Assembly (NCBI GenBank): GCA_949152475.1
Contig: OX424569.1
Location: 21,551,170-21,615,169 of the forward strand
Source of the DNA: Terebella lapidaria
Lineage: Eukaryota > Annelida > Polychaeta > Terebellida > Terebellidae
Direction of reading: 5' to 3'
DNA length: 64,000 nucleotides
A program made the translations under genes and the position numbers. Below the pieces are notes generated by a model. The model was not told the origin of the DNA. It made no database searches and worked only from the letters and a program-made list of their open reading frames with translations. Positions 1 to 64,000 of the stretch are shown here, piece after piece. How positions within the stretch are numbered: position 1 is the stretch's first letter; the number at the start of each line of letters is the position of its first letter.

Positions 1-779
1 CCGTCCGTCCGTCCGTCCGGGCAAACGGAACGGAGTTTTGGGGATTTCTTAGGGGGAATAAAGCTGAAAACGCCCCACAACCACAGTTTAAGCCAAGAGT
101 GCGGTCTTATGGGGATTTTTTCAGGACTTATGGGGAAAGTTAAGATAGGAAATTTAACATTGGGTCCGCCCGTAACGCCCATCCGTTCACCCGTCCGTCT
201 GTCCGTCGTCCGTCGTCTGTTAACATTTTTATCTTTTTTGTTTACGGACGAATTTTTCTGAAATTTTGCACAAAAATGCTTAAAAATAATTCAAAAATGT
301 GGTATTTTTTTAGTTTTTTGATTTTCGCATTTTTTTCAAAATGGCGGCCGTTTTCGTCGAAAAATGGGCAATTTTAGACTTTGACGGTCGTTTTCTCAAA
401 ATGTGTTCAGTAATTTTTTTTCTTATTGATGCATAACACTCCTCATATGTACCCCTCTGACATGTATAAATTTCGTTGCCCTTGAATCGCTCGAAGTTGG
501 CCATTTTGGGCCCAAACTCGGCCCAAATGGGACTTTCCCATGTTAAATTCTCCTATGCTTTATAATGGGACACATTAAGCCTAATATCTCACTTAATATT
601 GAGATTAGAGACTAGGAATCAATTGTGGACATACAGGAAATGATATATGCTGAATATTCTCGTGACCTTGCATTTAACCTCTGACCTCGGTTTCAAGGTC
701 AGAGCGGCCGTTTTTTTCGAAAAATGGCGAATTATGGACTTTGACGGTTGTTTTCTCAAAATCTGTTCAGTAACTTTTT
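1..779 (+). mobile_element. Family 1A Helentron-like copy, cut by window edge
   Basis: The left edge enters in a CCGT microsatellite. A 150-base stretch (about 19-165) interrupts it before it resumes (about 170-220). The usual family 1A body follows: the TTCTGAAATTTTGCAC block, the AAAATGGCGGCC block near 341, the TGGGACTTTCCCA hairpin near 529 and the start of the 134-bp repeat. The copy stops in its own T-run (CAGTAACTTTTT) at 779, where copy A is inserted. The 5' hairpin lies outside the window. The short minus-strand frame here is a repeat read-through seen in many copies. Confidence 0.85.
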
Positions 780-2581
780 AGGTTACCGGACCTATGGTCC
801 GATAACCTATTGCCATGGCGTTGCGTCGTCCGTCCGTCCGTCCGTCCGTCCGTCCGTCCACCCGTCCGTCCGTCCGTCCGTCTAGCCGTCCGTCGTCCGT
901 CTGTTAACATTTTTATCTTTTTTGTTTACGGACGAATTTTTCTGAAATTTTGCACAAAAATGCCTAAAAATATTTCGAGAGGGAGGTATTTTTTAGTTTT
1001 TTTGATTTTCGCATTTTTTTCAAAATGGCGGCCGTTTTCGTCGAAAAATGCCTGATTTTGGACTTTGGCGGCCATTTTCTCAAAAACTGTTCAGTAACTT
1101 TTTTTCTTTTTGATACATAACACTCCTCATATATACTCCTGTGATGTGTATAAGTTTTCGTTGCGCTTGAATCGCTCGAAGTGGGCCATTTTGGGCCAAA
1201 CTCGGCCCAAATGGGACTTTCCCATGTTAAATTCTCCTATGCTTTATAATGGGACACATTATGTCTTATATCTCACTTAATATTGAGATTAGAGACTAGG
1301 AATCAATTGTGGACATATAGGAAATGATATATGCTGAATATTGTCGTGACCTTGAATTTAACCTCTGACCTCGGTTTCAAGGTCAGAGCGGCCGTTTTCG
1401 TCGAAAAATGGCCAATTTTGGACTTTGACGGTCGTTTTCTCAAAATCTGTTCAGTAACTTTTTTTTGTATTGATGCATAACACTCCTCATATGTACCCCT
1501 GTGACATGTATAAATTTCGTTGCGCTTGAATCGCTCGAAGTGGGTCATTTTGGGCCCAAACTCGGCCCAAATGGGACTTTCCCATGTTAAATTCTCCTAT
1601 GCTTTATAATGGGACACATTAAGCCATAATATCTCACTTAATATTGAGATTAGAGACTAGTATTCAATTGTGGACATATAGGAAATGATATATGCCGAAC
1701 ATTGTCGTGACCTTGATTTTGACCTTTGACCTCGGGTTCAAGGTCAGAGCACAAAATGGCTAATATCTCGCTTATTATCGACTTTACAGCTTAGGAATCA
1801 ATTGTGAACATATTTGAAATGATATATGTTGAATATTCTCGTGACCTTGAATTTGACCTTTGACCTTATTTTCAAGGTCACATGACAAAAATGGCTAATA
1901 TCTTGCTTATTATCGACTTTACAGCTTAGGAATCAATTGTGAACATATAGGAAATGATTTATGCTGAATATTCTCGTGACCTTGAATTTGACCTCTGACC
2001 TCGGTTTCAAGGTCAGAGCGGCCGTTTTCGTCGAAAAATGGCCAATTTTGGACTTTGACGGTCGTTTTCTCAAAATCTGTTCAGTAACTTTTTTTCTTAT
2101 TGATGTATTAACTGTACATATTTTGCATATTACTGAATATATGTTCTCTTTCGAGTTCTGATTGCGTTATACCTGACATTGCACATTCTTTCACATATAC
2201 AATCCTTACCATTCGAAGTTAAGCCTGAGGCGAAGTGTTTGGGGTTCACTTCTTAATACGTCCCCCGAATGGTTTTGATTGCTATATGTCTATGTGTGTG
2301 TAGGTGTCTTTATGTTTCATTTAAGAAAACTTGTATTTCCCCTATTTAACTTCGTTAATTTCGGTATTAATATGAGAGAAGGCCGCGAGCCTGTGTATCT
2401 GTGAAAGATGCACACACAATCCCTTTAACAGGTGGCACGCATCCACGCGACCGCAACAAACCACAGATTGCTTTATGGCCCCATGGTCGACAAAGTTAAC
2501 GAGTTTAAATGCCCTCAAAAGCATGCCTCAGGAGCATGAGCAGACGGTTTGGTGATCACTGATCAAGGTTATAAAAGACAG

Positions 2582-4680: not shown

Positions 4681-6717
4681 AGGTTACCGGACCTATGGTC
4701 CGATAACCTATTGGCATGGCGTTGCGTCCGGCGTCCGTCGTCCGGCGTCCGTCGTCCGTCGTCCGTCCGGCGTCCGTCCGTTCACATTTTTATCTTTAAA
4801 GTATATGGTCCGATCTTTCTGAAATTTTGCACAAAAATACTTAAAAATATTTCCAGGAAAGGTTTTTTTTAGTTTTCTGATTTCCGCATTTTTTTCAAAA
4901 TGGCGGCCATTTTCGACGAAAAATGCCTGATTTTGGACTTTGGCGGCCATTCTCTCAAAATCTGTTCAGTAACTTTTTTTCTTTTTGATACATAACACTC
5001 CTCATATATACTCCTGTGATGTGTATAAGTTTTCGTTGCGCTTGAATCGCTCGAAGTGGGCCATTTTGGCCCAAACTCAGCCCAAATGGGACTTTCCCAT
5101 GTTAAATTCTCCTATGCTTTTTAATGGGACACATTATGCCTAATATCTCACTTAATATTGAGATTAGAGACTAGGAATCAATTGTGGACATATAGGAAAT
5201 GATATATGCTGAATATTCTCGTGATCTTGAATTCGACCTCTGACCTCAGTCTCAAGGTCAGAGCGGCCGTTTTCTTTAAAAAATGACCAATTTTCGATTT
5301 TGACGGTCGTTTTCTCAAAATCTGTTCAGTAACTTTTGTTCTTGTTGATGCATAACACTCCTCATATGTACCCCTGTGACATGTATAAATTTCGTTGCCC
5401 TTGAATCGCTCGAAGTGGGCTACTTTGGGCCCAAACTCCACCCAAATGGGACTTTCCCATGTTAAATTCTCCTATGCTTTATAATGGGACACATTAAGCT
5501 TAATATCTCACGTAATATTGAGATTAGAGACTAGGAATCAATTGTGGACATATAGGAAATGATATATGCTGAATATTCTTGTGACCTTGAATTTGACCTC
5601 TGACCTCGGTTTCAAGGTCAGAGCACAAAATGTCTAATATCTTGCTTATTATCAACTTTACAGCCTAGGAATCAATTGTGGACATATAGGAAATGATACA
5701 TGCCGAATAATCTGATGACCTTGAATTTGACGTTTGACCTCATTTTCAAGGTCACAGAACAAAATGGCTAATATCTCACTTATTATCGATTTTACAGCTT
5801 AGGGATCAATTGTGGACATATAGGAAATGATATATGCTGAATATTCTCTTGACCTTGAATTTGACCTCTGACCTCGGTTTCAAGGTCAGAGCACAAAATG
5901 TCTAATACCTCGCTTATTATCAACTTTACAGCCTAGGAATCAATTGTTGACATATGGGAAATGATACACGCCGAATAATCTGATGACCTTGAATTTGACG
6001 TTTGACCTCATTTTCAAGGTTACAGAACAAAATGGCTAATATCTCACTTATTATCGATTTTACAGCTTAAGGATCAATTGTGGACATAAAGGAAATGATA
6101 TATGCTGAATATTCCCGTGACCTTGAATTTGACCTCTGACTTCAGTTTCAAGGTCAGAGCACAAAATGGCTAATATCTCGCCTATTATTGACTTTACAGC
6201 TTAGGAATCAATTGTGGACATATAGGAAATGATATATGCCGAATATTCTAATGACCTTGAATTTGACCTTTGACTTCATTTTCAAGGTCACAGGAAAAGT
6301 GGCTAATATCTCGCTTCTTATCGACTTTACAGCTTGAGAATCAATTATGAACATATAGGAAATGATATATGCAGATTATTGCCTTGACATTGAATTTGAC
6401 CTTTGACCTCATTTTCAGGATCAGTTTAGGAATCAATTATGAACATATAGGAAATGATATAAGCTGAATATTGCTATGACCTTGAATTCGACCTTTGACC
6501 TCATTTTCAAGGTGACAGGACATGATGGCTAATATCTCGCTTATTATTGACTTTACAGCTTAGGAATCAATTGTGGACATACTAGAAATGACATATGCCG
6601 AATATTATCATGTCCTTGAATTAACCAATGACCTTATTTTCAAGGTCACAGGACAAAATACTAATATCTAAAATATATATTGTCCGGTAACCTTTCTTAG
6701 CCCTTGGGCTAATTTTT
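4681..6717 (+). mobile_element. Family 1A copy B, complete, about 2 kb
   Basis: Starts with AGGTTACCGGACC TAT GGTCCGATAACC, then TATTGGCATGG and a CGTCCGGCGTCC-type microsatellite (4727-4790). Next come the leader block, a second partial leader, and about eleven 134-bp units (5165-6660). It ends TTGTCCGGTAACCT, hairpin TTAGCC CTTG GGCTAA and T6. This is the cleanest full-length 1A copy and a good type example. It joins head-to-tail to the T-tail of the preceding 1B fragment. Confidence 0.88.
5165..6660 (+). repeat. 134-bp tandem array of copy B
   Basis: Each unit runs: AATATCTCGCTTATTATCG, ACTTTACAGCTTAGGAATCA, ATTGTGGACATATAGGAAAT, GATATATGCTGAATATTCT, then TGACCTTGAATTTGACC, TTTGACCTCATTTTCAAGGT and CACAGGACAAAATGGC. 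The motif TGACCTTTGACCT is the reverse complement of the DR1 consensus AGGTCAAAGGTCA. TGACCTTGAA and TTCAAGGTCA form a perfect 10-bp inverted repeat around it. Spacing measured on clean units elsewhere (63101, 63235, 63369, 63503, 63637) is 134. Confidence 0.9.
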
Positions 6718-9195: not shown

Positions 9196-12185
9196 AGGTT
9201 ACCGGACCTATGGTCCGATAACCTATTGCCATGGCGTTGCGTCCGTCGTCCGTCCGTCCGTCCGTCCGTCGTCCGTCTGTTAACATTTTTATCTTTTTTG
9301 TTTACGGACGAATTTTTCTGAAATTTTGCACAAAAATGCCTAAAAATATTTCGAGAGGGAGGTATTTTTTAGTTTTTTGATTTTCGCATTTTTTTCAAAA
9401 TGGCGGCCGTTTTCGTCGAAAAATGCCTGATTTTGGACTTTGGCGGCCATTTTCTCAAAAACTGTTCAGTAACTTTTTTTCTTTTTGATACATAACACTC
9501 CTCATATATACTCCTGTGATGTGTATAAGTTTCGTTGCGCTTGAATCGCTCGAAGTGGGCCATTTTGGGCCAAACTCGGCCCAAATGGGACTTTCCCATG
9601 TTAAATTCTCCTATGCTTTTTAATGGGACACATTATGTCTTATATCTCACTTAATATTGAGATTAGAGACTAGGAATCAATTGTGGACATATAGGAAATG
9701 ATATATGCTGAATATTGCCGTGACCTTGAATTTGACCTCTGACCTCGGTTTCAAGGTCAGAGCGGCCGTTTTTGTCGAAAAATGGCCAATTTTGGACTTT
9801 GACGGTCGTTTTCTCAAAATCTGTTCAGTAACTTTTTTTTGTATTGATGCATAACACTCCTCATATGTACCCCTGTGACATGTATAAATTTCGTTGCCCT
9901 TGAATCGCTCGAAGTGGGCCATTTTGGGCCCAAACTCGGCCCAAATGGGACTTTCCCATGTTAAATTCTCCTATGCTTTATAATGGGACACATTAAGCCA
10001 TAATATCTCACTTAATATTGAGATTAGAGACTAGTATTCAATTGTGGACATATAGGAAATGATATATGCCGAACATTGTCGTGACCTTGAATTTGACCTT
10101 TGACCTCGGGTTCAAGGTCAGAGCACAAAATGGCTAATATCTCGCTTATTATCGACTTTACAGCTTAGGAATCAATTGTGAACATATAGGAAATGATATA
10201 TGCTGAATATTCTCGTGACCTTGAATTTGACCTTTGACCTTTTTTTCAAGGTCACATGACAAAAATGGCTAATATCTCGCTTATTATCGACTTTACAGCT
10301 TAGGAATCAATTGTGAACATATAGGAAATGATTTATGCTGAATATTCTCGTGACCTTGAATTTGACCTCTGACCTCGGTTTCAAGGTCAGAGCGGCCGTT
10401 TTCGTCGAAATATGGCCAATTTTGGACTTTGACGGTCGTTTTCTCAAAATCTGTTCAGTAACTTTTTTTCTTATTGATGTATTAACTGTACATATTTTGC
10501 ATATTACTGAATATATGTTCTCTTTCCAGTTCTGATTGCGTTATACCTGACATTGCACATTCTTTCACATATACAATCCCTACCATTCGAAGTTAAGCCT
10601 GAGGCGAAGTGTTTGGGGTTCACTTCTTAATACGTCCCCCGAATGGTTTTGATTGCTATATGTCTATGTGTGTGTAGGTGTCTTTATGTTTCATTTAAGA
10701 AAACTTGTATTTCCCCTATTTAACTTCGTTAATTTCGGTATTAATATGAGAGAAGGCTGCGAGCCTGTGTATCTGTGAAAGATGCACACACAATCCCTTT
10801 AACAGGTGGCACGCATCCACGCGACCGCAACAAACCACAGATTGCTTTATGGCCCCATGGCGACAAAGTTAACGAGTTTAAATGCCCTCAAAAGCATGCC
10901 TCAGGAGCATGAGCAGACGGTTTGGTGATCACTGATCAAGGTTATAAAAGACAGTTAACCGGTGTTTGACGGTTAACCGGTTAATCGTTTGGAGATTTAA
11001 CAGCCGGTTATTCGCGGTTATTAAAAAAATGCTAGCCGTCGGCGGTTAACCCATTAATCGTGCAGGCCCTATTTATTATTGACTTTACAGCTTAGGAATC
11101 AGTTGTGCACCTATGGGGAATGATGTGTACATGCCAAATATTTTGATGACCATTGATTCGACCTTCGACCTTATTTTCAAGGTCATGGAACAAAATTGCT
11201 ATTTTGTTTTACTTGTTATTGAATTTACAGCTTAGCAAACAATGGACATATTGGGATTCCAAAATGTTCTATTTTACGTTTGTTTTTGGCATCATCAAAA
11301 TCTGACTATTGGTGGTAATAAATTGATACTTACTTTCATATCACTGAGTCAGTGTCACTGCTGGCGGACGTTGAATCTGTCCCCGAGGATACCATCAACT
11401 CAGTAGCCTTCTGGCTTGTGATTAGGTACTTATGTATTTGTCATATATCTATTCCATGGGGCTTGTTTCAGATTTCTAAATTATTTTCATAGGTAGTTGG
11501 GCAGTTGTATACTAATTCCATCAGGTGTACAGTAGAAACAACTACATTTAACACACTGTCTGCCCCTGATGACGCCAGTGTGTCTTTGGATAAACTATTT
11601 GGTCGGGCTTGTTTCTATTCCAAAATGTTCTATTTTACGTTAGTTTTTGGCATCATCAAAATCTGACTATTGGTGGTAATAGATTGATACTTACATTCAT
11701 ATTACTGAGTCGGTGTCACTGTTGGCGGACGTTGAATCTGTCCCCGAGGATACCATCAATTCAGTAGTTTTCTGGCTTGTGATTAGGTACTTATGTACTC
11801 GTCATATATCTATTCCATGGGGTTTGTTTCAGATTTCTAAATTATTTTCATAGGTTGTGGGCAGTTGTATACATGTACTAATTCCATCAGGTGTACAGTA
11901 GAAACAACTACATTTAACACACTGTCTGCCCCTGATGACACCAGTGTGTCTTTGGATAAACTATTTGGTCGGGCTTTGTTTCTATTCCAAAATGTTCTAT
12001 TTTACGTTTGTTTTTGGCATCATCAAAATCTGATTATTGGTTGTAATAGATTGATACTTACATATACATGTTTGCTGGATATTCTCATGACTTTGCATTT
12101 TGACCAGTGACCTTATTTTCAAGGTCACAGGAATATAAAACATATTTTGTCCGGTAACCTGTCTTAGCCCTTGGGCTAATTTTTT
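9196..12185 (+). mobile_element. Family 1A copy D, near-identical to copy A
   Basis: The hairpin at 9196 is followed by a (CCGT)n tract shorter than in copy A, then the same order of modules: two leaders, three 134-bp units, the GGTTAACC cluster (about 10953-11072) and 360-bp units (from about 11260). It ends TTTTGTCCGGTAACCTGTC TTAGCC CTTG GGCTAAT(T)n. It differs from copy A by scattered single bases only. Left flank is the T-tail of copy C; right flank is 1B sequence. Confidence 0.85.
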
Positions 12186-13378: not shown

Positions 13379-13934
13379 TTTTTTTTTGGCCTTTGAAAAT
13401 TGTTTCGGACTTCGAATTTCACTCAAGTTTTCCTTCATAATGGGAGCTATGCAGAGTAATCTCATAGAACACTTCAAGATAGAGCCTAAGTATTGGCACA
13501 TTCAAATGGGAAATCATATATTGCGGTTTGAGTGGTGACCTTGAATTTGACCTTCAATGACCTCGAAAGGTCAAAACGATCTTTTTTGTTGAAAAAACGA
13601 TGAATTTTGCTTTTGGTGGTCATTTTATCGAAATCTATTCAAACAGTTTTCCTCAAAATCATGTATAAGATTATCCTTATGTACCTTTGTGATGTGTATA
13701 AGTTTTGTTGCCTTTGAATCGACTGCCTGTGAAAATTTGTCATTTACGAAAAAAATCTTTCAAGATGTAACTTGATTTCGTATTATAGTCCATACAGAAA
13801 ATGTGTTTCTATCAACATTTATGAAGATGTTTTAACATATTGATTTTAACATCAGTGTAGCAATTTGTATGTATTCAGTATTCTATGCAATTCACATGAT
13901 TGCCGGTAAGCTACAGCACCCTTGGTGCTATGTT
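13379..13934 (+). mobile_element. Family 4 Helentron-like copy, 3' part
   Basis: The body contains CTTCATAATGGGAGCT and TGACCTTGAATTTGACC, shared with type 1B. It closes with TGCCGGTAAGCTACAGCACC CTT GGTGCT ATGTT: an inverted terminus (compare family 1, GTCCGGTAACCT) followed by a 6-bp hairpin. The base after it resumes a family 1 leader (TATCTTTAAAG) that normally follows CATTTT, so this 3' end also sits in a T-run. The 5' end is not identifiable; the upstream 1B-like bases (13087 on) may belong to it. Confidence 0.7.
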
Positions 13935-15463: not shown

Positions 15464-16563
15464 AGGTTACCGGACCTTTGGTCCGATAACCTATTGCCGT
15501 GGCGTTGCGTCCGTCGTCGTCGTCCGTCGTCCGGCGTCCAGCGTCCGGCGTCCGTCAACATTCATATCTTTAAAGCTTATGATCGAATCTTCCTGAAATT
15601 TTGCACAAAAATGCTTGAAAATATTTCGAGAGGGAGGTATTTTTTAGTTTTTTGATTTTCGGATTATTTTCAAAATGGCGGCCATTTTTGACGAAAAACA
15701 GCTAATTTTGGACTTTGACGGTCGTTTTCTCAGAAACTGTCTGATCAGATTTGAGATTTTTGTTTCAAAAGATTCTCCTCATGTACCTCTGTGATGTGTA
15801 TAAGTTTGGTTGCCCTTGAATCGCCGATCTCCGTGTGGCGGCCATTTTGAATTTTTGACGAGTCGGCGAAAAAAATTTTTTTCGCCCCAAATCGCATTAA
15901 TATCCATTTTGGGCCATTTCTAGGCAAAAAAAATTTTTCACCCTTTGAAAAAAATGTTGGACTTAGAAATTTTTCGGCACTTTTTTCCTTCATAATGGGA
16001 GCTGTCAGGACTGTTCTCATAGAACACTTGAAGATACAGCTTAGAAATTGGTACTTTCAAATGGGAAGTCATATATGGTGATTTGTGTGGTGACCTTGAA
16101 TTTGACCTTCGATGACCTTGAAAGGTCGGAACAGCCATTTTGGGGTCAAAAAATGCCCAGATTTGCCTCTATAGATGAAATGCTTGCATATAGGACTCAT
16201 GTTTGCATTATGAACATATAGCAAGACATATATGGCACAACTAATGATGACCTTGATCTTGACGTCAGATGACCTTGAGTGCCAAATGTCTGACTCGTAA
16301 TGTGTAAATTGACCTGAGCGGCCTAAACGAATCCACCCAGATATATCTTTGTATTTTGAACATATAGAATATCAAATGCCGCACACATACATGTAATGGT
16401 GACATCGAAGTTCACACGGATGACCTTGATTGGTAAATCTCAAGGTCATTTGTTCACACTGCGAACCTTGATTGGTAAATCTCAAGGTCTGTTACCTGCC
16501 AATGCTGCCATGGCCAAACCAAAATTGTCCGGTAACCTGTCTTAGCCTTTGGGCTAATTTTTT
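15464..16563 (+). mobile_element. Family 1B copy E, complete, 1.1 kb
   Basis: The hairpin AGGTTACCGGACC TTT GGTCCGATAACC begins in the poly-T of family 3 element A. A CGTCCGGCGTCC microsatellite, the leader, the 1B body with CTTCATAATGGGAGCT, then TTGTCCGGTAACCTGTC TTAGCC TTTG GGCTAAT(T)n follow. Family 3 resumes directly with TCTTTTCTTTT and CTTCTTCCGCC, so the insertion split a T-run. A good type example of the short 1B form. Confidence 0.85.
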
Positions 16564-24635: not shown

Positions 24636-25369
24636 TTATGGTGTAGTGTTACTGAATAATTAAGGCATTTCGGCAGAAATGCCTTTATGGTTTTAGCAGA
24701 ATTTTTTTTTTTTTTTTTTCTTCTTCCGCCACTTTTGGTTTCCGGACGATAACTTTAGATTGCCTTGACGGATCCTTGTCAAATTTTCACCGCAAGTCAG
24801 AAATGATATGAGGAAGAACCCTAATCTTTTTGAGCCGGATTGGAGGTCCGTGAGGTCCGTGAGGATGAAATCAAGGCTAATTTTAAGACTTGGTTTCTGG
24901 ACGATAACTGGAAAAATATTTATGCAATAGTTGCAGAACTCTGCATGGAGGTTCATATGCCACCAGGGAAGAACCCTATTGATTTTGGGATCGATCCGTC
25001 AAACGACCTTTGACCTAGAGGTCAAAATAATTTTTTGCTGATTCATCCTTGAGGCTTCCTGCATATCTCGGAAACCGTGCGTCGTAGAGCGAAACGGACG
25101 TTATTTTCGGACTCGTCGCCCTAGACAAACATCTCTAGGGTGTACTTTTTTTTTTGATCCGGCTCCGAGGTCCGTGAGGTCCGTGAGGATGAAATCGAGG
25201 AACTTGGTTTCCGGACGATAACTCAAAAAATATTCAGGCAATAGTTGCAGAATTTTGCACGGAGGTTTATATATCACCAGGGAAGAACCCTATTGATTTT
25301 GGGATCGATACCTCAAACGACCTTTGACCTAGAGGTCGAAATAATTTTTTGCTGAGTCATCCTTGATTC

Positions 25370-28400: not shown

Positions 28401-29763
28401 AGGTTACCGGACCTATGGTCCGATAACCTATTGCCGTCACGTTGCGTCCGTCGTCCGTCCGTCGTCCGGCGTCCGTCGTCCGTCCACAGCTGTATCTTTA
28501 AAGTTTACAGGCGGATTTTTCTGAAATTTTGCACAAAAATGCCTAAAAATATTTCAAGAGGGGGTTTTTTTTTAGTTTTTTGATTTTCGCATTTTTCTCA
28601 AAATGGCGGCCATTTTTGACGAAAAATGGCCAATTTTGGACTTTGGCGGCCATTTTCTCAAAAACTGTCTGATCAGTTTTGAGATTTTTGTTTCAAAAGA
28701 TTCCCCTTATGTACCTTTATGATGTGTATAAGTTTTGTTGCCCTTGAATCGCCGGTCTCCGTGTGGCGGCCATTTTGAATTTTTGACGGGTCGGCGAAAA
28801 ATTTTTTTTTTGCCCCAAATTGCGTTACTATCCATTTTGGGCCATTTCTAGGCAAAAAAAAATTTTTCACCCTTTGAAAAAAATTTTGGACTTAGAAAAT
28901 TTTCGACACCTTTTTCCTTCATAATGGGAGCTGTCCGGACTGTACTCATAGAACGCTTAAAGATAGAGCTTAGATATTGTCACTTTCAAATGGGAAGTCA
29001 TATATGAAGACTTGTGTGGTGACCTTGAATTTGACCTTGGATGACCTTGAAATGTCAAAACAGCCATTTTTGAGTCGAAAAATGCCCAAATTTGCACCTT
29101 GTTTGTCTTTAATCGAAAACTGTCTGATCACTTTTGAGATTTTTATTTCAAAACATAGTAGTTGGGGTTTTTGACATGATGTGTATAAATATGTATATAG
29201 TGTATAAAGTGCCTTGAATTGCTCATAAGGCTAGAAATTTAGGCTGAATAGGCCCCAAATTTAATTTTTGGTCGTTTTCCTTCAAATTTATCTGATCAGT
29301 TTTGAGATTTTTGTTATAAAACATGCTAATTGGGGTCCCTGACATTGTGTATAAAGATGGAGTGCTTCGAATTGCTTAAAAGGCCCCTTGAGTGTGTAAA
29401 TTGGCCTCTACAGCCAAAAAATGTTTGTAGGTATAGCTGGAATTGGAAGTCATATACATGTATACCACATATATATGTGGCTTTTTTGGGTGACGATGAA
29501 CTTGACGTCAGATGACATTGAGTGCTATATCTCTTTGTCACGTCCAACAAGAAATGTGTAAATTTCGTTTATAGACAAAAGACTTGTAGATAGACCTTGT
29601 ATTTGTATTTTGAACATACATGAATACAAGGTTATATGCTGCACACTTAATGATGACATTGAAGTTCACGAAGATGATTGGTTTATCTTAACGTCATATC
29701 TCACCTGTCCTGTTTCAACTAAAGTTGTCCGGTAACCTATCTTAGCCCTTGGGCTAATTTTTT
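28401..29763 (+). mobile_element. Family 1B copy I, complete, 1.36 kb
   Basis: Hairpin AGGTTACCGGACC TAT GGTCCGATAACC, CGTCCGTCGTCCGGCG microsatellite, leader, 1B units with GGCGGCCATTTTG and TTCATAATGGGAGCTG, TGACCTTGA motifs and GTTGTCCGGTAACCTATC TTAGCC CTTG GGCTAAT(T)n. The bases after it (CTTATCAATGCATAACAC) continue a 1A leader normally preceded by CAGTAACTTTTTT, so its right side split that T-run. Confidence 0.85.
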
Positions 29764-34021: not shown

Positions 34022-34041
34022 TTGCTATTTAAGTCTATTAT

Positions 34042-37000: not shown

Positions 37001-38027
37001 AGGTTACCGGACCTATGGTCCGATAACCTATTGGCATTGCGTTGCGTCCGTCGTCATCCGTCGTCGTCGTCGTCGTCGTCCACATTTTTATCTTTTTTGT
37101 TTACGGGCGAATTTTTCTGAAATTTTGCACAAAAATACTTAAAAATAATTCAAGAAGGAGGTATTATTTAGTTTTTTGATTTTCGAATTTTTTTCAAAAT
37201 GGCGGCCGTTTTCGACGGAAAATGCCTGATTTTGGACTTTGGCGGCCATTTTCTCAAAATCTGTTCAGTAACTTTTTTTCTTTTTGATACATAAGACTCC
37301 TGATATGTACTCCTATGATGTCTATAAATTTCGTTGCGCTTGAATCGCTCGAAGTGGGCCATTTTGGCCCAAACTCAGCCCAAATGGGACCTTCCCATGT
37401 TAAATTCTCCTATGCTTTATAATGGGACACATTATGCCTAATATCTCACTTGATATTGAGATTAGAGACTAGGAATCAATTGTGGACATATAGGAAATGA
37501 TATATGCTGAATGTTCTCGTGACCTTGAATTTGACCTCTGACCTCAGTTTATTGTCATGACCTTGAATTTGACCTTTGACCTCATTTTCAAGGTCACAGG
37601 ACAAAATGGCTAATATCTCACTTATTATCGATTTTACAGCTTAGGAATCAATTGTGGACATATAGGAGATGATATATGCTGAATATTCTCGGGACCTTGA
37701 ATTTGACCTCTGACCTCATTTTCAAGGTCATAGGACAAACTGGCTCATATCTTGCTCCTCTATTGACTGTATGGCTTGGTAATCAATTGTGGACATGATA
37801 TAGAAAATGATATACATTGAATATTTTGATTTTCAAGGCCACAGCACTAAATTGCTAATATCTCTCTGATTATTGAATTTACAGCTTAGCAATCAACTGT
37901 GGACATGATATATGCTTAATGTTATATATGCTGAATATTCTCTTGACCTTGAATTCAACCAGTGACCTGGCTAACATCTAAAATATTAAACATTGTCCGG
38001 TAACCTATCTTCGGCCCTTGGCCTAAT
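37001..38027 (+). mobile_element. Family 1A copy J, 1.03 kb
   Basis: Hairpin AGGTTACCGGACC TAT GGTCCGATAACC, TATTGGCATTG, (CGTCGT)n, leader with AAAATGGCGGCCG, about four 134-bp units, TTGTCCGGTAACCTATCTTC and the variant hairpin GGCC CTT GGCC TAATT. Family 2 element beta is inserted in its terminal T-run; the remaining Ts and family 2 alpha resume at 41630. The empty site in beta reads GATCAATTTTTAGTTTGAAT. Confidence 0.85.
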
Positions 38028-43290: not shown

Positions 43291-45138
43291 TATGGGGCCC
43301 AAATAGGACTTTCCCATGTTAAATTCTCCTATGCTTTGTAATGGGCCACAATGTTCTTGATATCTCACTTAATATTGAGATTAGAGACTCGGAATCAATT
43401 GTGGACATATAGGAAATGATATATGCTGAATATTCTCGTGACCTTGAATTCGACCTTTTCACCTCATTTTCAAGGTCAGAGCACAAAGTGGCCAATATCT
43501 TGCTTATTATTGACTTTACAGCTTAGGAATCAATTGTGGACATATAGGAAGTGATATATGCTGAATATTCTCGTGACTTTGAATTCGACCTCATTTTCAA
43601 GGTCAGAGCACAAAATGGCTAATATCTCACTTATCATCGAGTATACAGCTTAGAAATCTATTATGACCATATGGGAAATGATTCATGCCGAATATTCTGA
43701 TGACCTTGAATTTGACCTTTGACCTCAAGGTCAGAGCACAAAATCGCTAATATCTTGCTTATTATTGTATCCCCCGAACAAAGTTCGGCGGATACTATGG
43801 ATTTGCGATTGTCGCGCCACGCCCGCGTCCGCCGCGTCCGCAGACACTTTCTTTTGAACGCGCTACAGCTTGCAAATCTGAACCGATTTTGATAATATTT
43901 TATAGGGACATGTCTTATGGTCATTTTGTGCTCAAATTAGCCTGTTTACCACATTTGGCTTTTGAACGCCCTATAGGTGGGAGTTTTGGATGAATGATGA
44001 TGAAATCGCACAGGCTGGATGAGAAAGACCGTCACACAAAACCTATTGTTTTTCAGAATGATCAAGTAAATATTAATTAGTTAGCAGGCTAACTTATTAC
44101 CACCATTGAAATACCCACTTTGACGTCTGTGATCACTCCAATACCCTGTACTATGAAGGCGAATGGCACTGGATTCTTGTTCAGAATAGACAACTGATGC
44201 TTTTGGTGAAAACAAAACAATATTACCGAATAAGTTAACATTAGTTCTACTAGTTACCCCGGTAAGTCTATTATTGACCAAAATAAAAATAGTTAAGACA
44301 AGAAACATTTATTATTGAGCTCAACAAGGTGAAGGTCTTGTCCAGTAGAGATTTCATGGCTGTAACTGAATAAGTTAACATCAGTTTTACTAGTTAAGTC
44401 TATTACTGACCGGTATGAAATTAGTTAAGATAGGAAACATTTATTATTGGGTTCAACAAGGTACAGATTCTACCCAGTAGAGATTTCATGGCTATAACTA
44501 AATAAGTTAACATTAGTTTTACTAATTAAGTCTATTATTGATCACAATAAAAAAAGTTAAAACATGTAACATTTCTTATTGGGCTTGAGCAACAAGGTAA
44601 AGGTTTTGTTCAGTAGAGATTTCATGGCTGTACCCATAATGTTGGGGGATTGAGCAAGGTTTCGCATTCCATTCCTGTGACCAGCTTCTGGAAAGTATTT
44701 GGTACGAAAAAATAAGTTAATGAATATTTTAGTTGTTATGACTGTTACTGCATGGAATAGAAATAGTTAATGTCCAGAATACTGTTAAAGTCCGCAATAC
44801 TGATATCGATGAAACACACTGCTCTGGCAGTATGATATTTTGTTTGAGTTATTAGTAACATATTTTGGGCAACAGGGATGATGGGGCCAGAGGGGGATTC
44901 ACCCACGCGGTCGTTGGCGACCGAATCGTCTAGTTCACTTTACAGCTTGGGAATCAATTGTGGACATATTGGAAATGATATATGTTGAAAATTATCGTGA
45001 CCTTGAAATTGACCTTTGACCTAATTTTCAAGGTCAAAGCTCAAAATGGCTATCGTCTTGCTTATTATCAACTTTACAGCTCAGAAATCAAATGTGGACA
45101 TACAGGAAATGATATATGCTGAATATACTTGTAACCTT
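43291..45138 (+). mobile_element. Family 1A remnant split by family 2 gamma
   Basis: CCCAAATAGGACTTTCCCAT and 134-bp units at 43370-43765 and 44935-45138; both family 1 ends are missing. The unit broken at CTTATTAT (43765) resumes at TCACTTTACAGCTTGGGAAT (44935), the expected continuation of ATTATTGACTTTACAG with one changed base. Confidence 0.75.
43766..44934 (+). mobile_element. Family 2 element gamma, complete, 1.17 kb
   Basis: TGTATCCCCCGAAC AAA GTTCGGCGGATAC TATGG, a CCGCGTCCGC tract, one 168-type unit, about three 132-bp units, and a diverged end GAGGGGGATTCACCCACG CGGTCG TTGG CGACCG AATCGTCTAGT. Inserted in a family 1 134-bp unit with no target duplication. Confidence 0.85.
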
Positions 45139-45140
45139 GA

Positions 45141-46888: not shown

Positions 46889-47114
46889 AGCTCACCGGCT
46901 GAAAGCCGTGGAGCTGATGGGATGGATTGACACGTGTCTGCCGTGTCTGTTGCCCCATGTTTTCCTGACTCAAATCTTTCAGAATCTTCTCCGTCTAAAG
47001 TACTATTCCTATGGTCCCCAAACGTGGAATACTGCTCGGTTATTGTGTGTTCTCCAAATGATACGTCAGATTTGCAGCAAATTCGGAGGCTTTCTAATAA
47101 AATTTAGTGATTGA
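46889..47114 (+). mobile_element. Family 6 Helentron-like 5' fragment
   Basis: Starts in a T-run with AGCTCACCGGCT GAA AGCCGTGGAGCT (arms complementary apart from a shifted T/A), then GATGGGATGG. This type of hairpin, beginning AGCTCACC, is one I know from molluscan repeats. TTTCAGAATCTTCTCCGTC in the body also fits that group. The end is not identifiable. Confidence 0.6.
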
Positions 47115-48162
47115 ACACCAAAATTCATCATACATGTGCTTGTGTTTATACATACGGGTTGCGGGCTTGTGGCCGGGAATCAATATCACTTTAACGCATG
47201 CGCAGACGGGACAATGTGATCGCATTGTTTATCTTCGCATATCGACCAAGAAACGCGATTATATCCAATCGTACAATATTTGATAGCAGAAAATACCTGG
47301 ATTTTGGTGTAATCGTTGTTGATGTTTCTGTAAATCCACTGTAGTATGTTATCAAGTGATAAATTTCTCGGTAATTGCAGGATATACAGCGAAGGCACCG
47401 GTAACAGGGCAAAGATCTATAAATAGCACTGCTCATTGATTGGTTGGAAGTGGCGGAACACCCGAGAGTTCCCCGAGTGTTTCCGAGTATTTCCTAATAT
47501 GGGACATCAGCCATTGAGCATGACTGGGCGATAAAACATGAAAATGAATCAGTGACGAAAAAGACATATTTAGCAAAGAATTCACGCGAACACACAATGA
47601 CAGCTACTGCAATGCATGCCCAATCACTAAACGGACATGTTTCGAATGCTGCCCTGTCAGTCGGCCTAAATTTATACATGCGTGCTTCACGGTGCTTGAC
47701 ATGCTCGATTCCCGCGCCAAGCAAATGCTTGACGGTAACAGATCATGTTCGATAAAAATTGCAAACAGTCACTCTGTATTCTGTCCGATTCCGATCATAG
47801 TGCACCCGTGATTTGATTGGCGGAGCAGGGGCTCGATGTTTGAATCGTCAAAATTATCGAAAAGTCTTATTACAGATAGCATCATGTCACGGATTGTTTA
47901 GATCTGAAAATATGTCGTATCTGCTTGAATACGATTAGTTCATTTGTATTCACCAGTTCACATGATTCATGACGGCTCAAGTGGAGCGTTGATCACGAGT
48001 ACGTTATGACAATACAGTAGCGGATTAACGATCGTCACTTACATGTACCGATAAAGGTTTACTTTCTAAAGGAAAAAAAAAAAACGAATAACAAAAACAA
48101 GTTGTGATTTGCATTTATAGACTTCGCCATGAAATAATATATTATCAGAGTGTTAAATTAAT
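47115..48162. other. Unique sequence, possibly host, with promoter-like motifs
   Basis: No repeat family is recognised. On the minus strand CCAATCA (about 47437-47443) lies upstream of CTATTTATAG (about 47420-47429), and CCAAAATCCAG|GTATTT (about 47295-47312) could be a 5' splice donor. GCATGCGC at about 47197 resembles an NRF1 site. Frames of 60-80 residues on both strands (47191-47755) show no domain. Confidence 0.35.
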
Positions 48163-49224
48163 TGTATCCCCCGAACGAAGTTCGGTGGATACTATGGATT
48201 TGTCTTCGTCGCGCCGCCGCGTCCGCGTCCGCAGACACTTTCTTGTGAACGCGCTACAGGTTGCAAATCTTAACCGATTCTAATAATTTTTTATACAGAC
48301 ACATCTTATGGTAAGATCCCGACACCAATCGATTTTGGTTGTTTAACACACATGGCTTGTGAACGCTCTACGAGTGGGAGTTTTCAATGAATGAGGATGA
48401 AATCGCACAGACTCAGAGAGAAAGACCCTCACACGAAACCTATCGTTTTTCAGAATGATCGAATAAATATTAATTAGTTAACGGACTAACTTATTAGGAC
48501 CATTAACATACCGACTTGAACATCTGTGATCAATCCAATACCCTGTACTATGAAAACAAATAGCACTGGATTCTTGTTCAGAATAGAGAACTGATGTTTT
48601 TGGTGAAAACAGATCGATATTATCGAATAAGTAAACCTTAATTTTACTAGTTAAGTCTATTATTGACCACAATTAAAATAGTTAAGATGAGAAACATTTA
48701 TTATTAAGCTCAACAAGGTGAAGGTTTTGTCCAGTACAGATTTCATGAGTGTAACCGAATAGGTTAACCTTATTATTACTAGTTAAGTCTATTATTGACC
48801 ACAATAAAAATAGTTAAGACAAGAAATATTTATTATTGGGCTCAACAAGGTAAAGGTTCTGTCCAGTAGAGATTTTACGGCTGTAACCAAATAATTTAAT
48901 ATTATTTTTGCTAGTTAAATCTATCATTGACCTCAATAATAATAGTTAAGATGAGAAACATTTATTATTGAGCTCAACAAGGTAAATGTTTTGTCCAGTA
49001 GAGATATCTGGGTGTAACTGAATAAGTTAACATTATTTTCACTAAAACATTGATCTGGCTCGAATTTCATCATTTTGTGGCCTAAGATTTGACATTTTTC
49101 TGGTAATCTTCTCTATCCCTTGTTCTAGTTTTTCACACTTATTAGTAATATATTTGGGGCAAGAGGAATGAGAGTGCTACGGGGGATACACCCAAGCGGT
49201 CGTAGGCGACCGGATGCGTCTAGT
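48163..49224 (+). mobile_element. Family 2 element delta, complete, 1.06 kb
   Basis: TGTATCCCCCGAAC GAA GTTCGGTGGATAC TATGG, GCCGCCGCGTCCGCGTCCGC, one diverged 168-type unit, about three 132-bp units, a short tail without 121-bp units, and CTACGGGGGATACACCCAAG CGGTCG TAGG CGACCG GATGCGTCTAGT. Flanks are TTAAATTAAT and TAATTAATG, consistent with insertion at a TT. Confidence 0.87.
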
Positions 49225-50996: not shown

Positions 50997-51002
50997 GGAC
51001 TC

Positions 51003-53464: not shown

Positions 53465-54219
53465 CATTGTACTTGTTAAAAGGGTTATTAAGGCATTTCG
53501 GCAGAAATGCCTTTATGGTTTTAGCAGAATTTTTTTTTTTTTTTTTTCTTCTTCCGCCACTTTTGGTTTCCGGACGATAACTTTAGATTGCCTTGACGGA
53601 TCCTTGTCAAATTTTCACCGCAAGTCAGAAATGATATGTGGAAGAACCCTATTCTTTTTGTGCCGGATCCGAGGTCCGTGAGGTCCGTGAGGATGAAATC
53701 AAGGCTAATTTTAAGACTTGGTTTCCGGACGATAACTGGGAAAATATTTATGCAATAGTTGCAGAACTCTGCATGGAGGTTCATATGTCACCAGGGAAGA
53801 ACCCTATTGATTTTGGGATCGATCCGTCAAATGAGCTTTGACCTAGAGGTCAAAATAATTTTTTGCTGATTCATCCTTGAGGCTTTCTGCATATCTCGGA
53901 AACCGTGCGTCGTAGAGCGAAACGGACGTTATTTTCGTACTCGTCGCCCTAGACAAACATCTCTAAGGGGAATTTTTTTTTTTGATCCGGCTCCGAGGTC
54001 CGTGAGGTCCGTGAGGATGAAATTGAGGCTGATCTTGAAACTTGGTTTCCGGACGATAACTCGAAAAATATACAGGCAATAGTTGCAGAATTTTGCACGG
54101 AGGTTTATATATCACCAGGGAAGAACCCTATTGATTTCGGGATCGATACCTCAAACGACCTTTGACTTAGAGGTCGAAATATTTTTTTGCTGAGTCATCC
54201 TTGAGGCATCCTGCATATC

Positions 54220-54736
54220 TCGGAAACGGTGCGTCGTAGAGCGAAACGGACGTTATTTTCGGACTCGTCGCCCTAGACAAACATGTCTAATGGGTATTAT
54301 GGATGAACTTTGACCTTGACCCGAAATTTTTTTGCCGAGTCGGCATTTTTCGTTTTCGTCGATATCTCGGAAACGGTGCGTCGTAGAGCGAAACGGACGT
54401 TATTTTCGGACTCGTCGCCCTAGACAAACATGTCTAAAGGGTATTATAGATGAACTTTGACCTTGACCCGAAATTTTTTGCCGAGTCGACATTTTTCGTT
54501 TTCGTCGATATCTCGGAAACGGTGCATCGTACAGCGAAATGGACGTTATTTTCGGACTCGTCGCCCTAGACAAACATGTCTAAGGGGTATTATGGATGAA
54601 CTTTGACCTTGACCCGAAATTTTTTGCCGAGTCGGCACTTTTCGTTTTCGTCGATATCTCGGAAACGGTGCATCGTGGAGCGAAACGGACGTTATTTTCG
54701 GACTCGTCGCCCTAGACAAACATGTCTAAGGGGTAT
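54220..54736 (+). repeat. 147-bp array, left of the family 2 insertion
   Basis: About 3.5 units of the family 3 core, each with GAACTTTGACCTTGACCCG and TTTTTGCCGAGTCGGCA, ending in CTAAGGGGTAT where family 2 epsilon begins. Confidence 0.9.
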
Positions 54737-56360
54737 TGTATCCCCCGAACAAAGTTCGGCGGATACTATGGATTTACGATCGTCGCGCCGCCGCCGCCGC
54801 CGCCGCCGCCGCGTCCGCGTCCGCAGACACTTTCTTGTGAACGCGCTACAGCTTACAAATCTGAACCGATTTTGATAATATTTTATATGGACATGACTTA
54901 TGGTGAGATCTCAACACCTATCGATTTTGGTTGCCATAGCAACCAAAATAGCCGATTGGTGTAACATTTTGTGCTCAAATTAGCCTGTTTAACACACATG
55001 GGTTGTGAACGCTCTACGGGTGGGAGTTTTCGATGAATGATGATGAAATCGCACAGGCTCAATGAGAAAGACCATCACACGAAACCTATTGTTTTTCAGA
55101 ATGATCGAATAAATATTAATAAGTTTGAGAGGTTAACTTATTACAACAATTAAAATGCCTACTTTGACATGTGTGATCACTCCAATAACCTGTACTATGA
55201 AAGCAAATTGCACTGGATTCTTCTTCAGAATACAGAACTGATGTTTTTGGTGAAAACAGAACAATATTACTGAATAAGTTAACATTGGTTTTACTAGTTA
55301 AGTCTATTATTGACCACAATAAAAAAAGTTAAGATGAGAAACATTTATTATTGAGCTCAACAAGGTAAAGGTTTTGTCCAGTAGAGATTTCACAGGTGTA
55401 ACCAAATAAGTTAACATTATTTTCACTAGTTAAGTCTATTATTGACCACAATAAAAATAGTTAAGACAAGAAACATTTATTATTGGGCTCAACAAGGTAA
55501 AGCTTCTGTGCAGTAGAGATTTCATGGCTGTTGCCGAATAAGTTAACATCATTTTTACTAGTTAAGTCTATTAATGACCTCAAGAAAAATAGTTAAGACA
55601 AGAAACATTTATTATTGGGCTCAACAATTTAAAATTTTTGTCCAGTAGAGATTTCATGGGTGTAACCGGATAAGTTAACATTATTTTTACCATTAAAGTC
55701 AATTTTTACTTTGAATTTCAACTTGAAACCAAGTTTGGCACATATTATGAATTAAAATATAATTTATTGTGAAAAAATCGATCTGGCTCCAATTTCGTCA
55801 TCGTGAAATGCAGTTTTGGTAAACTTTTACTTGAATTTCAGCTCGAAACCAAGTTTGGCACATAATTATTATGAATTAAAATTTAAATTATGGTGAAAAG
55901 TTTGATCTGGCTCCTATTTCGTCATCTTGAAATGTAGTTTTGGTCAACTTTTACTTTGAATTTCAACTTGGAACCAAGTTTGGCATATAGTATGAGTTGA
56001 AATATCATCTATTTATTTATGGTGAAAAGTTCGATCTGGCTCCAATTTAGTCATCTTGAAATGCAGTTTTTGTCAACTTTTGCTTGAATTTCAACTTGGA
56101 ACCAAGTTTGTCAAATATTCTGAGTTGAAGTATAACTTTGGGTGAAAACTTTTATCTGGCTGTAATTTCGTTATTTTATCGAACATGTCGAAATGGAAAT
56201 TCGTATGCAGTGATTTTAGTGGTGATCTTGAATTCGTCCTTCAATAAGCTTGAAAGGTTTCACACTCACAATGTACATCAGTGATATATTTGGGGCAACA
56301 GGGATGATAGGGCTACGGGGGATACACCCAAGCGGTCGTAGGCGACCGGAAGCGTCTAGT
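54737..56360 (+). mobile_element. Family 2 element epsilon, complete, 1.62 kb
   Basis: TGTATCCCCCGAAC AAA GTTCGGCGGATAC TATGG, then an expanded (CCG)n of about 9 units and GTCCGCGTCCGCAG, one 168-type unit, four 132-bp units (55255-55690), four 121-bp units (55690-56180), and CTACGGGGGATACACCCAAG CGGTCG TAGG CGACCG GAAGCGTCTAGT. Flanks AAGGGGTAT and TATGGATGAAC join to the uninterrupted family 3 repeat AAGGGGTATTATGGATGAAC, giving exact ends and showing no target duplication. Confidence 0.93.
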
Positions 56361-57730
56361 TATGGATGAACTTTGACCTTGACCCGAAATTTTTTTGCCG
56401 AGTCGGCATTTTTCGTTTTCGTCAATATCTCGGAAACGGTGCATCGTAGAGCGAAACGGACGTTATTTTCGGACTCGTCGCACTACACAAACATGTCTAA
56501 GGGGTATTATGGATGAACTTTGACCTTGACCCGAAATTTTTTTGCCGAGTCGGCATTTTTCTTCGTCAATATCTCGGAAACGGTGTGTCGTAGAGTGAAA
56601 CGGACGTTAATTTCGGACTCTTCGCACTAGACAAACATGTCTAAGGGGTATTATGGATGAACCTTGACCCGAAATTTTTTCGCCGAGTCGGCATTTTTCG
56701 TTTTCGTCGATATCTCGGAAACGGTGCGTCGTAGAGCGAAACGGACGTTATTTTCGGACTCGTCGCCCTAGACAAACATGTCTAAGGGGTATTATGGATG
56801 AACTTTGACCTTGACCTGAAATTTTTTGCCGAGTCGGCATTTTTCGTTTTCGTCGATATCTCGGAAGCGGTGCATCGTAGAGCGAAACGGACGTTATTTT
56901 CGGACTCGTCGCACTAGACAAACATGTCTAAGGGGTATTATGGATGAACTTTGACCTTGACCCGAAATTTTTTCGCCGAGTCGGCATTTTCGTTTTTATG
57001 GATATCTCGGAAACGGTGAGTCGTAGAGCGAAACGGACGTTATTTTCGGACTCGTCGCTCTAGACAAACATCTCTAATGGGTATTATGGATGAACTTTGA
57101 CCTTGACCCGAAATTTTTTTGCCGAGTCGGCATATTTCGGTTTCGTCGATATCTGGGGAACGGTGCCTCGTAGAGCGAAACGGACGTTATTTTCGGACTC
57201 GTCGCCCTAGACAAACATGTCTAAAGGGTATTATAAATGAACTTCGACTTTGACCCGAAATTTTTTGCCGAGTCAGGATTTTTCATTTTCGTCGATATTT
57301 CGGAAACGGTGCGTCGTAGAGCGAAACGGACCGTATTTTCGGACTCGTCGCCCTAGACAAACATGTGTAAGGGGTATTATTGATGAATTTTGACCTTGAC
57401 CTGAAATTTTTTTGCCGAGTCGGCGTTTTTCGTTTTCGTCGATATCTTGGAAACGGTGCGTCGTAGAGCGAAACGGACGTTATTTTCGGACTCGTCGCCC
57501 TAGACAAACATGTCTGAGGGGTATTATTGATGAACTTTGACCTTGACTCGAAATTTTTTTGCCGAGACGGCATTTTTCGTTTTCGTCGATATCTTGGAAA
57601 TGGTGCCTCGTAGATCGAAACGGACGTTATTTTCGGACTTGTCGCCCTAGACAAGCATGTCTAATGGGTATTATGGATGAACTTTGACCTTGACCTTAAA
57701 TTTTTTTGCCGAGTCGGCATTTTTCATTTT
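56361..57730 (+). repeat. 147-bp array, right of the family 2 insertion
   Basis: About nine units, several with small deletions (for example near 56665). The last units carry TTTTTCATTTTTCGTCC and AGAGCCCATGGCAAACATG, marking the end of the core. The 123-residue minus-strand frame is a read-through. Confidence 0.9.
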
Positions 57731-57847
57731 TCGTCCATATCTAGGAAACGATGTGTCGTAGAGCCCATGGCAAACATGTTTTAAATATTAAGAATTAGTG
57801 CTAACACCGAAATGCCTCCAAGGCATCTTTAGGCCTTGACGTCTAGT

Positions 57848-62454: not shown

Positions 62455-64000
62455 GGACTTTGACGGTCGTTTTCTCAAAATCTGTTCAGTAACTTTTTTT
62501 CTTATTGATGCATGACACTCCTCCTATGTACCCCTTTGACATGTATAAATTTCGTTGCCCTTGAATCGCTCGAAGTGGGCCATTTTGGGCCCAAACTCGG
62601 CCCAAATGGGACTTTCCCATGTTAAATTCTCCTATGCTTTATAATGGGACACATTAAGCCTAATATCTCACTTAAAATTGAAATTAGAGACTAAGAATCA
62701 ATTGTGGACATATAGGAAATGATATATGCTGAATATTCTCGTGACCTTGAATTTGACCTCTGACCTTGGTTTCAAGGTCATAGCGGCCGTTCTCGTCGAA
62801 AATGGCTAATTTTGGACTTTGATGGTCGTTTTCTCAAAATCTGTTCAGTAACTTTTTTTCTTATTGATGCATAACACTCCTCATATGTACTTCTGTGACA
62901 TGTATAAATTTCGTTGCGCTTGAATCACTCGAAGTGGGCCATTTTGGGCCCAAACTCGGCGCAGATGTGACTTTCCCATGTTAAATTTTCCCATGCTTTA
63001 TAATGGGACACATCAAGCCTAATATCTCACTTAATATTGAGATTAGAGACTAGGAATCAATTGTGGACATATAGGAAATGATATATGCTGAATATTCTCG
63101 TGACCTTGAATTTGACCTTTGACCTCATTTTCAAGGTCACAGGACAAAATGGCTAATATCTCGCTTATTATCGACTTTACAGCTTAGAAATCAATTGTGA
63201 ACATATAGGAAATGATATATGCTGAATATTCTCGTGACCTTGAATTTGACCTTTGACCTCATTTTCAAGGTCACAGGACAAAATGGCTAATATCTCGCTT
63301 ATTATCGACTTTACAGCTTAGGAATCCATTGTGAACATATAGGAAATGATATATGCTGAATATTCTCGTGACCTTGAATTTGACCTTTGGCCTCATTTTC
63401 AAGGTCACAAGACAAAATGGCTGATATCTCGCTTATTATCGACTTTACAGCTTAGGAATCAATTGTGAACATATAGGAAATGATATATGCTGAATATTCT
63501 CGTGACCTTGAATTTGACCTTTGACCTCATTTCCAAGGTCACAGGACAAAATTGCTAATATCTCGCTTATTATCGACTTTACGGCTTAGGAATCAATTGT
63601 GAACATATAGGAAATGATATATGCTGAATATTCTCGTGACCTTGAATTTGACCTTTGACCTCATTTTCAAGGTCACAGGACAAAATGGCCAATATCTTGC
63701 TTATTAGCGACTTTGCAGCTTAGGAATCAATTGTGAACATATAGGAAATGATATATGCTGAATATTCTAGTGACCTTGAATTTGACCCTTGACCTAAATT
63801 TCAAGGTTAGTCATTTTATTTTCAAGGTCAAAATACAAAATGTCTTATATCTCGCTTATTATCAAATTTACAGCTTAGGGGTCCATAGTGAACATATAGG
63901 AAATGATGTATGCTGAATATTTTGGTGATCTAGAATTTGACCTTTGATCTCGTTTTCAAGGTCAGAGAACAAAATGGCTAATATGTCCCTTATTATCATC
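62455..64000 (+). mobile_element. Family 1A copy M, runs off the window
   Basis: Begins inside the leader (GGACTTTGACGGTCG), has a second leader block (62770-63000) with the TGGGACTTTCCCA-type hairpin, and at least seven clean 134-bp units from 63060 with the exact DR1-like TGACCTTTGACCT. No 3' end within the window. Confidence 0.85.

Follow-up and report, generated by a model that had tools for sequence, protein, structure and literature searches.

Putative rolling-circle elements with one end layout and two target classes in the genome of the annelid Terebella lapidaria

Helentrons are defined by a Rep/helicase protein with a C-terminal endonuclease, and some carry OTU proteases; together with elements of the DINE-1/HINE type, in which DINE-1 has a 13-bp subterminal inverted repeat (subTIR) with an adjoining inverted repeat and the partner is a Rep/helicase/endonuclease protein, they prefer TT targets with a variable number of T (PMC4067079). 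Eleven HINEs of the oyster Crassostrea gigas (Cg_HINEs) have a 5' subTIR with a complementary inverted repeat, a 3' subTIR followed by a palindrome, a GTCY/GTCC-type microsatellite, a satellite-like array and a T-rich target with TT and no target site duplication (TSD), some of them being unrelated in sequence (PMC7492417). Two other systems end differently. Proto-Helentron-Pi has 5'TT and 3'CTAG and inserts at A^T without TSD (PMC4067079), while the Helitron2 elements FoHeli1/2 of Fusarium oxysporum have hairpins at both ends and asymmetric inverted repeats, with an insertion site given as TNAT^T in a figure legend and TNAT^A in the text (PMC5148889). The present work concerns the window, a 64-kb stretch of Terebella lapidaria (contig OX424569.1:21551170-21615169 of assembly GCA_949152475.1, contig C16 in our labelling), which holds several families of elements, F1 to F5, with this kind of layout. 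Elements of oyster and fly have already been described with this layout, and the window families resemble the Cg_HINEs in the features given for those above, the lack of a TSD being subject to an ambiguous TT, by description rather than by comparison of sequences; what differs here is an autonomous partner for F1 and a split of the families into two target classes.

By its sequence, F1 is a Helentron-type HINE with an autonomous partner in the same genome. It starts with AGGTTACCGGACCtatGGTCCGATAACCT-ATTG, followed by a CGTC microsatellite, has a 5' hairpin of 13 bp with one mismatch (AGGTTACCGGACC/GGTCCGATAACCT), and ends with TCCGGTAACCT-TTCT-TAGCCCttgGGGCTA-ATTTT. The subTIR pair AGGTTACCGGA(C)/(G)TCCGGTAACCT provides the 11 or more identical bp at both ends expected of a HINE, and there is an inverted repeat beside the 5' subTIR as well as a 3' palindrome (the 3' hairpin reaching a z score of only -1.6 on folding). 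A 30-mer pattern of the exact F1 5' end occurs at 11,132 places in the assembly (761.6 Mb, 438 contigs), its reversed control at none. A genome search with the PF14214 profile (Helitron-like N) scored 150 places (234 candidates), many of them in open frames of 2,000-2,866 amino acids (aa) from several divergent lineages, and the genome appears to hold many rolling-circle transposons that may be active. When the second arm of the F1 hairpin was combined with an unusual continuation, 57 places matched (reversed control, 2); five of these have one continuation in common (with a base change in one of them), and among the five there are three, on C4, C2 and C5, that lie less than 8 kb from a listed Rep.

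The partner is a unit of about 17 kb at C4:21213405-21230545, excluding terminal T, with a second copy on C413. On the 5' side the two copies are 99.3% identical over 5,331 and 99.7% over 2,138 aligned bases, and their match starts in the T run immediately before AGGTTACCGGACC-AT-GGTCCGATAACCT-ATTGGCATGGCGTTGCGTCC, a hairpin with a loop one base shorter than in the F1 copies of the window. On the 3' side they are 99.96% identical over 2,358 bases, and the match stops in the T run immediately after TCCGGTAACCTATCTTCGGCCCTTGGCCTAA; these identities cover the parts compared, the middle of the C413 copy (40501-47799) being left out. The flanks differ on both sides. The 3' variant TCCGGTAACCTATCTTCGGCCCTTGGCCTAA is also present in two F1 copies of the window, in modules at 28365 and 37996 that end at 28395 and 38026, and copies on C2 and C15, fetched on their 3' side only, have the same F1-type 3' module in other flanks. 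About 10 kb separate the Rep match from the 5' end of the partner upstream. In the C4 copy a frame of 2,624 aa matches Rep (PF14214, 8.5e-27), PIF1 helicase (PF05970, 2.9e-20) and Exo_endo_phos (PF03372, 6.9e-8), and it contains HIHML and YIVNYINK, which we take to be the Rep histidine and tyrosine motifs. Its N-terminal part matches PF04843 (Herpes_teg_N, 1.3e-6; L054/L062/L055, C4:21219944 onward), perhaps a cysteine-protease domain, placed where other Helentrons carry OTU proteases. It is because a unit coding for Rep, PIF1 helicase and endonuclease is alike from an F1 5' end to an F1 3' end, in different flanks, that we class F1 as a HINE of Helentron type.

The whole 64 kb was read and its perfect hairpins were listed. 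An initial annotation, made from the window alone, had proposed at least five families with a single end architecture, and this is borne out for F1, F2, F3 and F5, together with the partly seen F4. The 5' hairpins have the arms it gave: 13 bp in F1 and F2 (GTATCCCCCGAAC/GTTCGGCGGATAC in the latter), each with one mismatch, 10 bp in F3 (AAGGCATTTC/GAAATGCCTT) and 9 bp in F5 (AGGAAGAGC/GCTCTTCCT). Its description of the 3' end as an inverted copy of the 5' terminus followed by a second hairpin also agrees with the 3' modules, where the inverted copies, judged by eye, span 11-12 bp in F1, 10 in F2, 11 in F3 and 9 in F5. All ends in the window are on the plus strand, with 10 F1, 5 F2, 3 F3 and 1 F5 5' ends, and 15 F1 (one chimeric and one degenerate included), 5 F2, 2 F3 and 3 F5 3' ends; minus-strand hairpin rows, which are identical hairpins read in reverse, are excluded from these counts. 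Comparison with 30 order-1 Markov shuffles rules out chance hairpins: the window has 16 hairpins whose 13-bp arms contain no more than one mismatch, where the shuffles average 0.17, as well as 6 perfect 10-bp hairpins (0.23 in the shuffles) and 6 perfect 9-bp ones (0.5). Under single-strand folding the 5' hairpins of all five families beat their shuffles (z of -4.8 for F1, -5.3 for F2, -6.5 for F3, -3.6 for F5 and -3.9 for F4). Genome-wide, exact 5' ends (G excluded at -8) number at least 10,901 for F1, 2,105 for F2, 1,733 for F3 and 249 for F5, the reversed controls giving 0. The nine element copies tested have no long coding frame, the longest being 64-125 aa.

Two parts of the initial annotation hold for some of the families only. 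It had T-rich 3' ends throughout, and F1 and F5 do end in T's; F2 and F3 both terminate in CGTCTAG followed by TT, in 7 of 7 and 3 of 3 of the 3' ends examined. It also took the sequences to be unrelated between families, a view that we dropped for F2 and F3 because these have in common the terminus, the motif TATGGNTTT after the hairpin and a T-W-A-TT target. F2 runs from TT-GTATCCCCCGAACaaaGTTCGGCGGATAC to CGGGGGATAC-ACCCAAGC-GGTCGtagGCGACC-GGAAGCGTCTAG-TT, and F3 from TT-AAGGCATTTCggcaGAAATGCCTT to CCGAAATGCCT-CC-AAGGCatctttagGCCTT-GACGTCTAG-TT. Left flanks were counted in the first 100 listed copies of each family, taken in contig order and not as a random sample. F1 is preceded by TTTTT in 83 and by TT in 96 of the 100, with T at -6 in only 20, which makes its target mostly exactly five T, unlike the variable T of DINE-1/HINE and Helentrons (PMC4067079); for F5 the figures are 73 for TTTTT and 95 for TT. 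All 100 copies have TT in both F2 and F3, with A at -3 in 93 and 88 and T at -5 in 99 and 92, respectively. From these counts and the 3' termini the families split into a T5 class (F1, F5) and a T-W-A-TT class (F2, F3); F4, from a single T-run flank, is probably T5.

Could a single Helentron protein, reading layout and not sequence, nevertheless move all the families as its HINEs? The same layout recurs throughout, and TT stands to the left of nearly every listed copy, from 95 of 100 in F5 to 100 in F2 and F3; yet two target preferences are matched to two 3' termini, and several Rep lineages are only 38-55% alike among the plus-strand loci (minus-strand loci, not reoriented, are excluded from this figure). 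We regard that explanation as unlikely. In place of the T-run or TT target and T-rich end of HINEs and Helentrons, F2 and F3 have T-W-A-TT and CTAG, and with these the asymmetric inverted repeats, hairpins at both ends (the 3' ones mildly better than shuffles) and TNAT^T target of the FoHeli1/2 type. Their T-W-A-T^T resembles the FoHeli site, while the terminal sequences are different, and FoHeli includes autonomous families in a fungal host (PMC5148889). With proto-Helentron-Pi they have in common 5'TT, 3'CTAG and insertion at A^T, with no TSD beyond the ambiguous TT, but F2 and F3 also have a 5' hairpin and subTIR (PMC4067079). That they are canonical Helitrons (TC...CTRR, A^T) is unlikely: the 3' CTAG would fit, as would the frequent A before TT and a hairpin that, by eye, stands 9-11 nt from the terminus, whereas the 5' ends, TTGTATCC and TTAAGGCA, are not TC, and neither a 5' hairpin nor an inverted 5' terminus at the 3' end is a canonical Helitron feature.

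Joined-flank constructs (n=10) were compared with the window and the fetched loci. F2 at 54736-56359 has an empty site at 25414-25503, identical over 90 bp (100%). Others were found for F2 at 43765-44933 (92.9% over 85 bp), F5 at 31590-34022 (95.3% over 64 bp), F1 at 37001-38026 after removal of the later F2 (93.3% over 90 bp, four extra T) and F1 at 15464-16557 in an F3 T tract (93.2% over 59 bp, low-complexity T). For the C4 autonomous copy the joined flanks matched a paralog at 75.8%, and for F1 at 28401-29757 they matched only their own 3' side and a sequence 77.6% identical. Among copies with a non-T5 left flank, six regions were fetched and four gave both ends (L063 and L066 did not). 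An F1 copy in L065 interrupts CATGTT^AAAT, CTAA being followed by T only (empty site 91.4% over 70 bp), and an F5 copy in L067 interrupts CTATT^GATG (93.3% over 89 bp), neither junction having a repeat longer than TT. Upstream of Rep open reading frames (ORFs), two filled/empty pairs show the right junction only, F3 in L041 against L039 (AGAGTAA^TTTGAAC) and F2 in L049 against L050 (GAAT^TTTGTCC).

These comparisons bear on the idea that the elements are cut-and-paste miniature inverted-repeat transposable elements (MITEs) that duplicate 2 bp (TT) or 4 bp (TTTT) of the target. In the families tested, filled sites have TT on both sides and empty sites one TT, and F1 adds four T and F5 two relative to the empty sites, as such elements might. 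Against this, the ends are asymmetric, a 5' hairpin with subTIR facing a 3' subTIR with another hairpin, the L065 and L067 insertions lack any repeat longer than TT, and F1 ends bound a Rep/helicase/endonuclease element. The symmetric terminal inverted repeats and fixed-length TSD of a DDE DNA transposon are not found, and the fixed-length duplication that would have spoken against the initial annotation was not seen beyond an ambiguous TT. On the empty-site and non-T5 junction comparisons the DDE/MITE explanation was dropped; we give it very little credence.

We consider it highly probable, then, that all the families are non-autonomous rolling-circle elements of the Helitron superfamily, with F1 a Helentron HINE, F5 and probably F4 following its T-run mode, and F2 and F3 forming a second class. 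From the matching ends of F1 and its partner, the domains of the ORF, the target classes and the empty sites, we infer a mechanism in which the Rep domain probably nicks adjacent to the F1 5' terminus, the PIF1-type helicase would peel off the strand, the inverted 5' terminus with the 3' hairpin would mark where copying stops, and the displaced strand would be placed into a T run. F5, and probably F4, would use this same mode. F2 and F3, with the same overall layout, 5'-TT...CTAG-3' ends and a T-W-A-TT target, would most likely depend for their movement on another Rep lineage, one of the Helitron2/proto-Helentron type. The initial annotation saw in all of them HINEs of Helentrons absent from the window; this stands for F1, the partner lying outside the window, and F5 falls in the same T-run class, its partner not having been found in our searches. 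For F2 and F3 it is not established, because of their other target, their CTAG end and their closeness to Helitron2 and proto-Helentron-Pi.

Several observations weigh against this interpretation. Folding supports the 3' hairpins weakly, F5 least, with z of -1.6 for F1, -1.4 for F2, -1.7 for F3, -0.5 for F5 and -1.4 for F4; out of 200 shuffles, 13 to 58 fold equally well. No clear empty site was found for four of the ten joined-flank constructs, among them those of F2 at 48162-49223, F2 at 38027-41628 and F3 at 53488-57846, which had none at all in the window and fetched loci; two of the four non-T5 constructs (L064, L068) likewise gave none. With TT on both sides when filled and once when empty, a 2-bp TT duplication and a TT borne by the element are not separable by sequence, an ambiguity also reported in PMC4067079. 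The 17-kb unit contains F2-like relics (by eye) and, close to where it ends on the 3' side, another F1-like 5' end, in which one hairpin arm is lost; hence it may be composite, the Rep having originally had other ends and the 3' end coming from a downstream HINE. Composite or not, F1 ends bound a repeated unit that carries the Rep/helicase/endonuclease ORF.

To these must be added the partner searches, which for Rep/helicase elements with the termini of each family succeeded for F1 and found no partner for F2 to F5, being weak searches. Upstream stretches of 5.5-6.6 kb at ten Rep loci showed no Rep element that starts with an F1-F5 end, a weak negative because L054, counted among these loci, belongs to the F1 partner, whose 5' end is about 10 kb upstream and outside the stretch; two of the ten stretches hold F2 copies or ends, read as separate insertions. 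Non-standard 5' continuations gave three hits for F2, seven for F3 and none for F5, and an F2 3' end search two, none of these hits being near a listed Rep (by eye). Of 100 listed F5 ends (out of 249), none is less than 20 kb from the 150 listed Rep places, the nearest being at about 30 kb (by eye). These negatives for F2, F3 and F5 are too weak to exclude a partner, because the F1 partner itself has the standard post-hairpin sequence, having been reached by such a search only by way of its internal F1-like copy, and because no more than 150 Rep places were listed. Likewise, limited searches found no Rep-helicase protein of the Helitron2 lineage with F2 or F3 ends. For the Rep lineage L039/L019/L040 and L041/L017/L042 the ends were not found: what resembled a 5' boundary proved to be F3 inserted into one of the copies, and on the 3' side the end disappears among repeats of about 328 bp.

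The copies in the window all lie on the plus strand, and several are nested. F1 at 9196..12179 has its 5' hairpin at 9196-9224, a CGTC microsatellite at 9240-9277, an array of about 134 bp at 10001-10393, and its 3' subTIR and hairpin at 12150-12179, followed by a T run. Further F1 elements lie at 4681..6712, with a 134-bp array; at 15464..16557, interrupting the T tract of a 5' module of F3; at 28401..29757, with the microsatellite and no longer tandem array listed; and at 37001..38026, in an F2-type monomer of about 121 bp. Within the 3' T run of the last sits F2 at 38027-41628. Other F2 elements (TT-GTATCC...CTAG) occupy 43765..44933, in an F1 134-bp monomer, 48162..49223, and 54736..56359, in an F3 147-bp monomer. 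This last copy is inside F3 at 53488..57846 (TT-AAGGCATTTC...GACGTCTAG), which carries arrays of about 147 bp; a further F3 5' hairpin at 24662..24685 has a 147-bp array (25377-26998) downstream. The F3 element is located between two retrotransposon fragments, one at 50241-53207 with protease, reverse transcriptase, a portion of RNase H and a weak gag match falling just short of the cut-off, the other at 58369-59274 with a gag bearing a zinc knuckle. F1 copies at 863-3797 and 9240-12176 are 98.8% identical over 2.9 kb in one orientation, a recent duplication or related insertions.

F5 starts with AGGAAGAGCaggGCTCTTCCT and ends with GCTCTTCCT-TTGA-GGCCagtGGCC-CTTGTT; its element at 31590..34022 (AGGAAGAGC hairpin...GCTCTTCCT, plus strand) is inserted into the T run that belongs to an F2-type monomer. 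It has the layout and the T-run target, with a weak 3' hairpin and a subTIR that, at 9 bp, falls short of the 11 bp asked of a family in PMC4067079. F4 has no complete copy in the window: there is one 5' hairpin with two mismatches (AGCTCACCGGCT/AGCCGTGGAGCT, 46889..46915, plus strand), preceded by a T run, and three 3' modules, at 13902, 24480 and 45177, the first (13902..13932, plus strand) consisting of GCCGGTAAGCTA, an AGCACC/GGTGCT hairpin and TGTTT. A further F4 3' module is at locus L052. In the 6719-7848 region GAAGCCCatcaGGGCCACACGACTT followed by T occurs three times, near an array of about 20 bp (AAAACTTGAATTTTCAAGAA), and a candidate 5' part, GTATGTCACCGTTTCAT, is present at 6719 and 31831; these repeats are a possible sixth family.

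The large satellite-like arrays of the window are carried by these elements. Within 1720-63661, AGGTCAAAGGTCA occurs 32 times against 0.02 expected, mainly in the F1 134-bp arrays and also in F3 monomers, and TCAAGGTCA 178 times against 0.79, in F1 and also in F3 monomers. They resemble DR1 and extended half-sites of nuclear receptors, which the elements would carry along and amplify; a literature search on Helitron arrays with nuclear-receptor sites found no paper. Another, made with the end sequences, found nothing on the subject, supplements and Repbase sequences being outside its reach.

A layout first noticed by eye now belongs, for F1, to a family whose partner is identified: a single genome holds over 10,000 F1 5' ends together with an intact Rep/helicase/endonuclease element that has matching ends. 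The split into two classes within that genome is the part that may interest specialists, as it offers a within-genome comparison for what sets the target of a rolling-circle transposon. We suggest, tentatively and with somewhat more doubt than confidence, that two separate Rep systems use a common hairpin/subTIR layout in this genome, the 3' terminus (CTAATTTT or CGTCTAG) co-varying with the target (T5 or T-W-A-TT). If true, F2 and F3 would be a hybrid class, joining HINE-type ends to a Helitron-type CTAG/A^T junction, and the presence of both classes in a single host could reveal what portion of the element, or of its protein, governs the choice of target.

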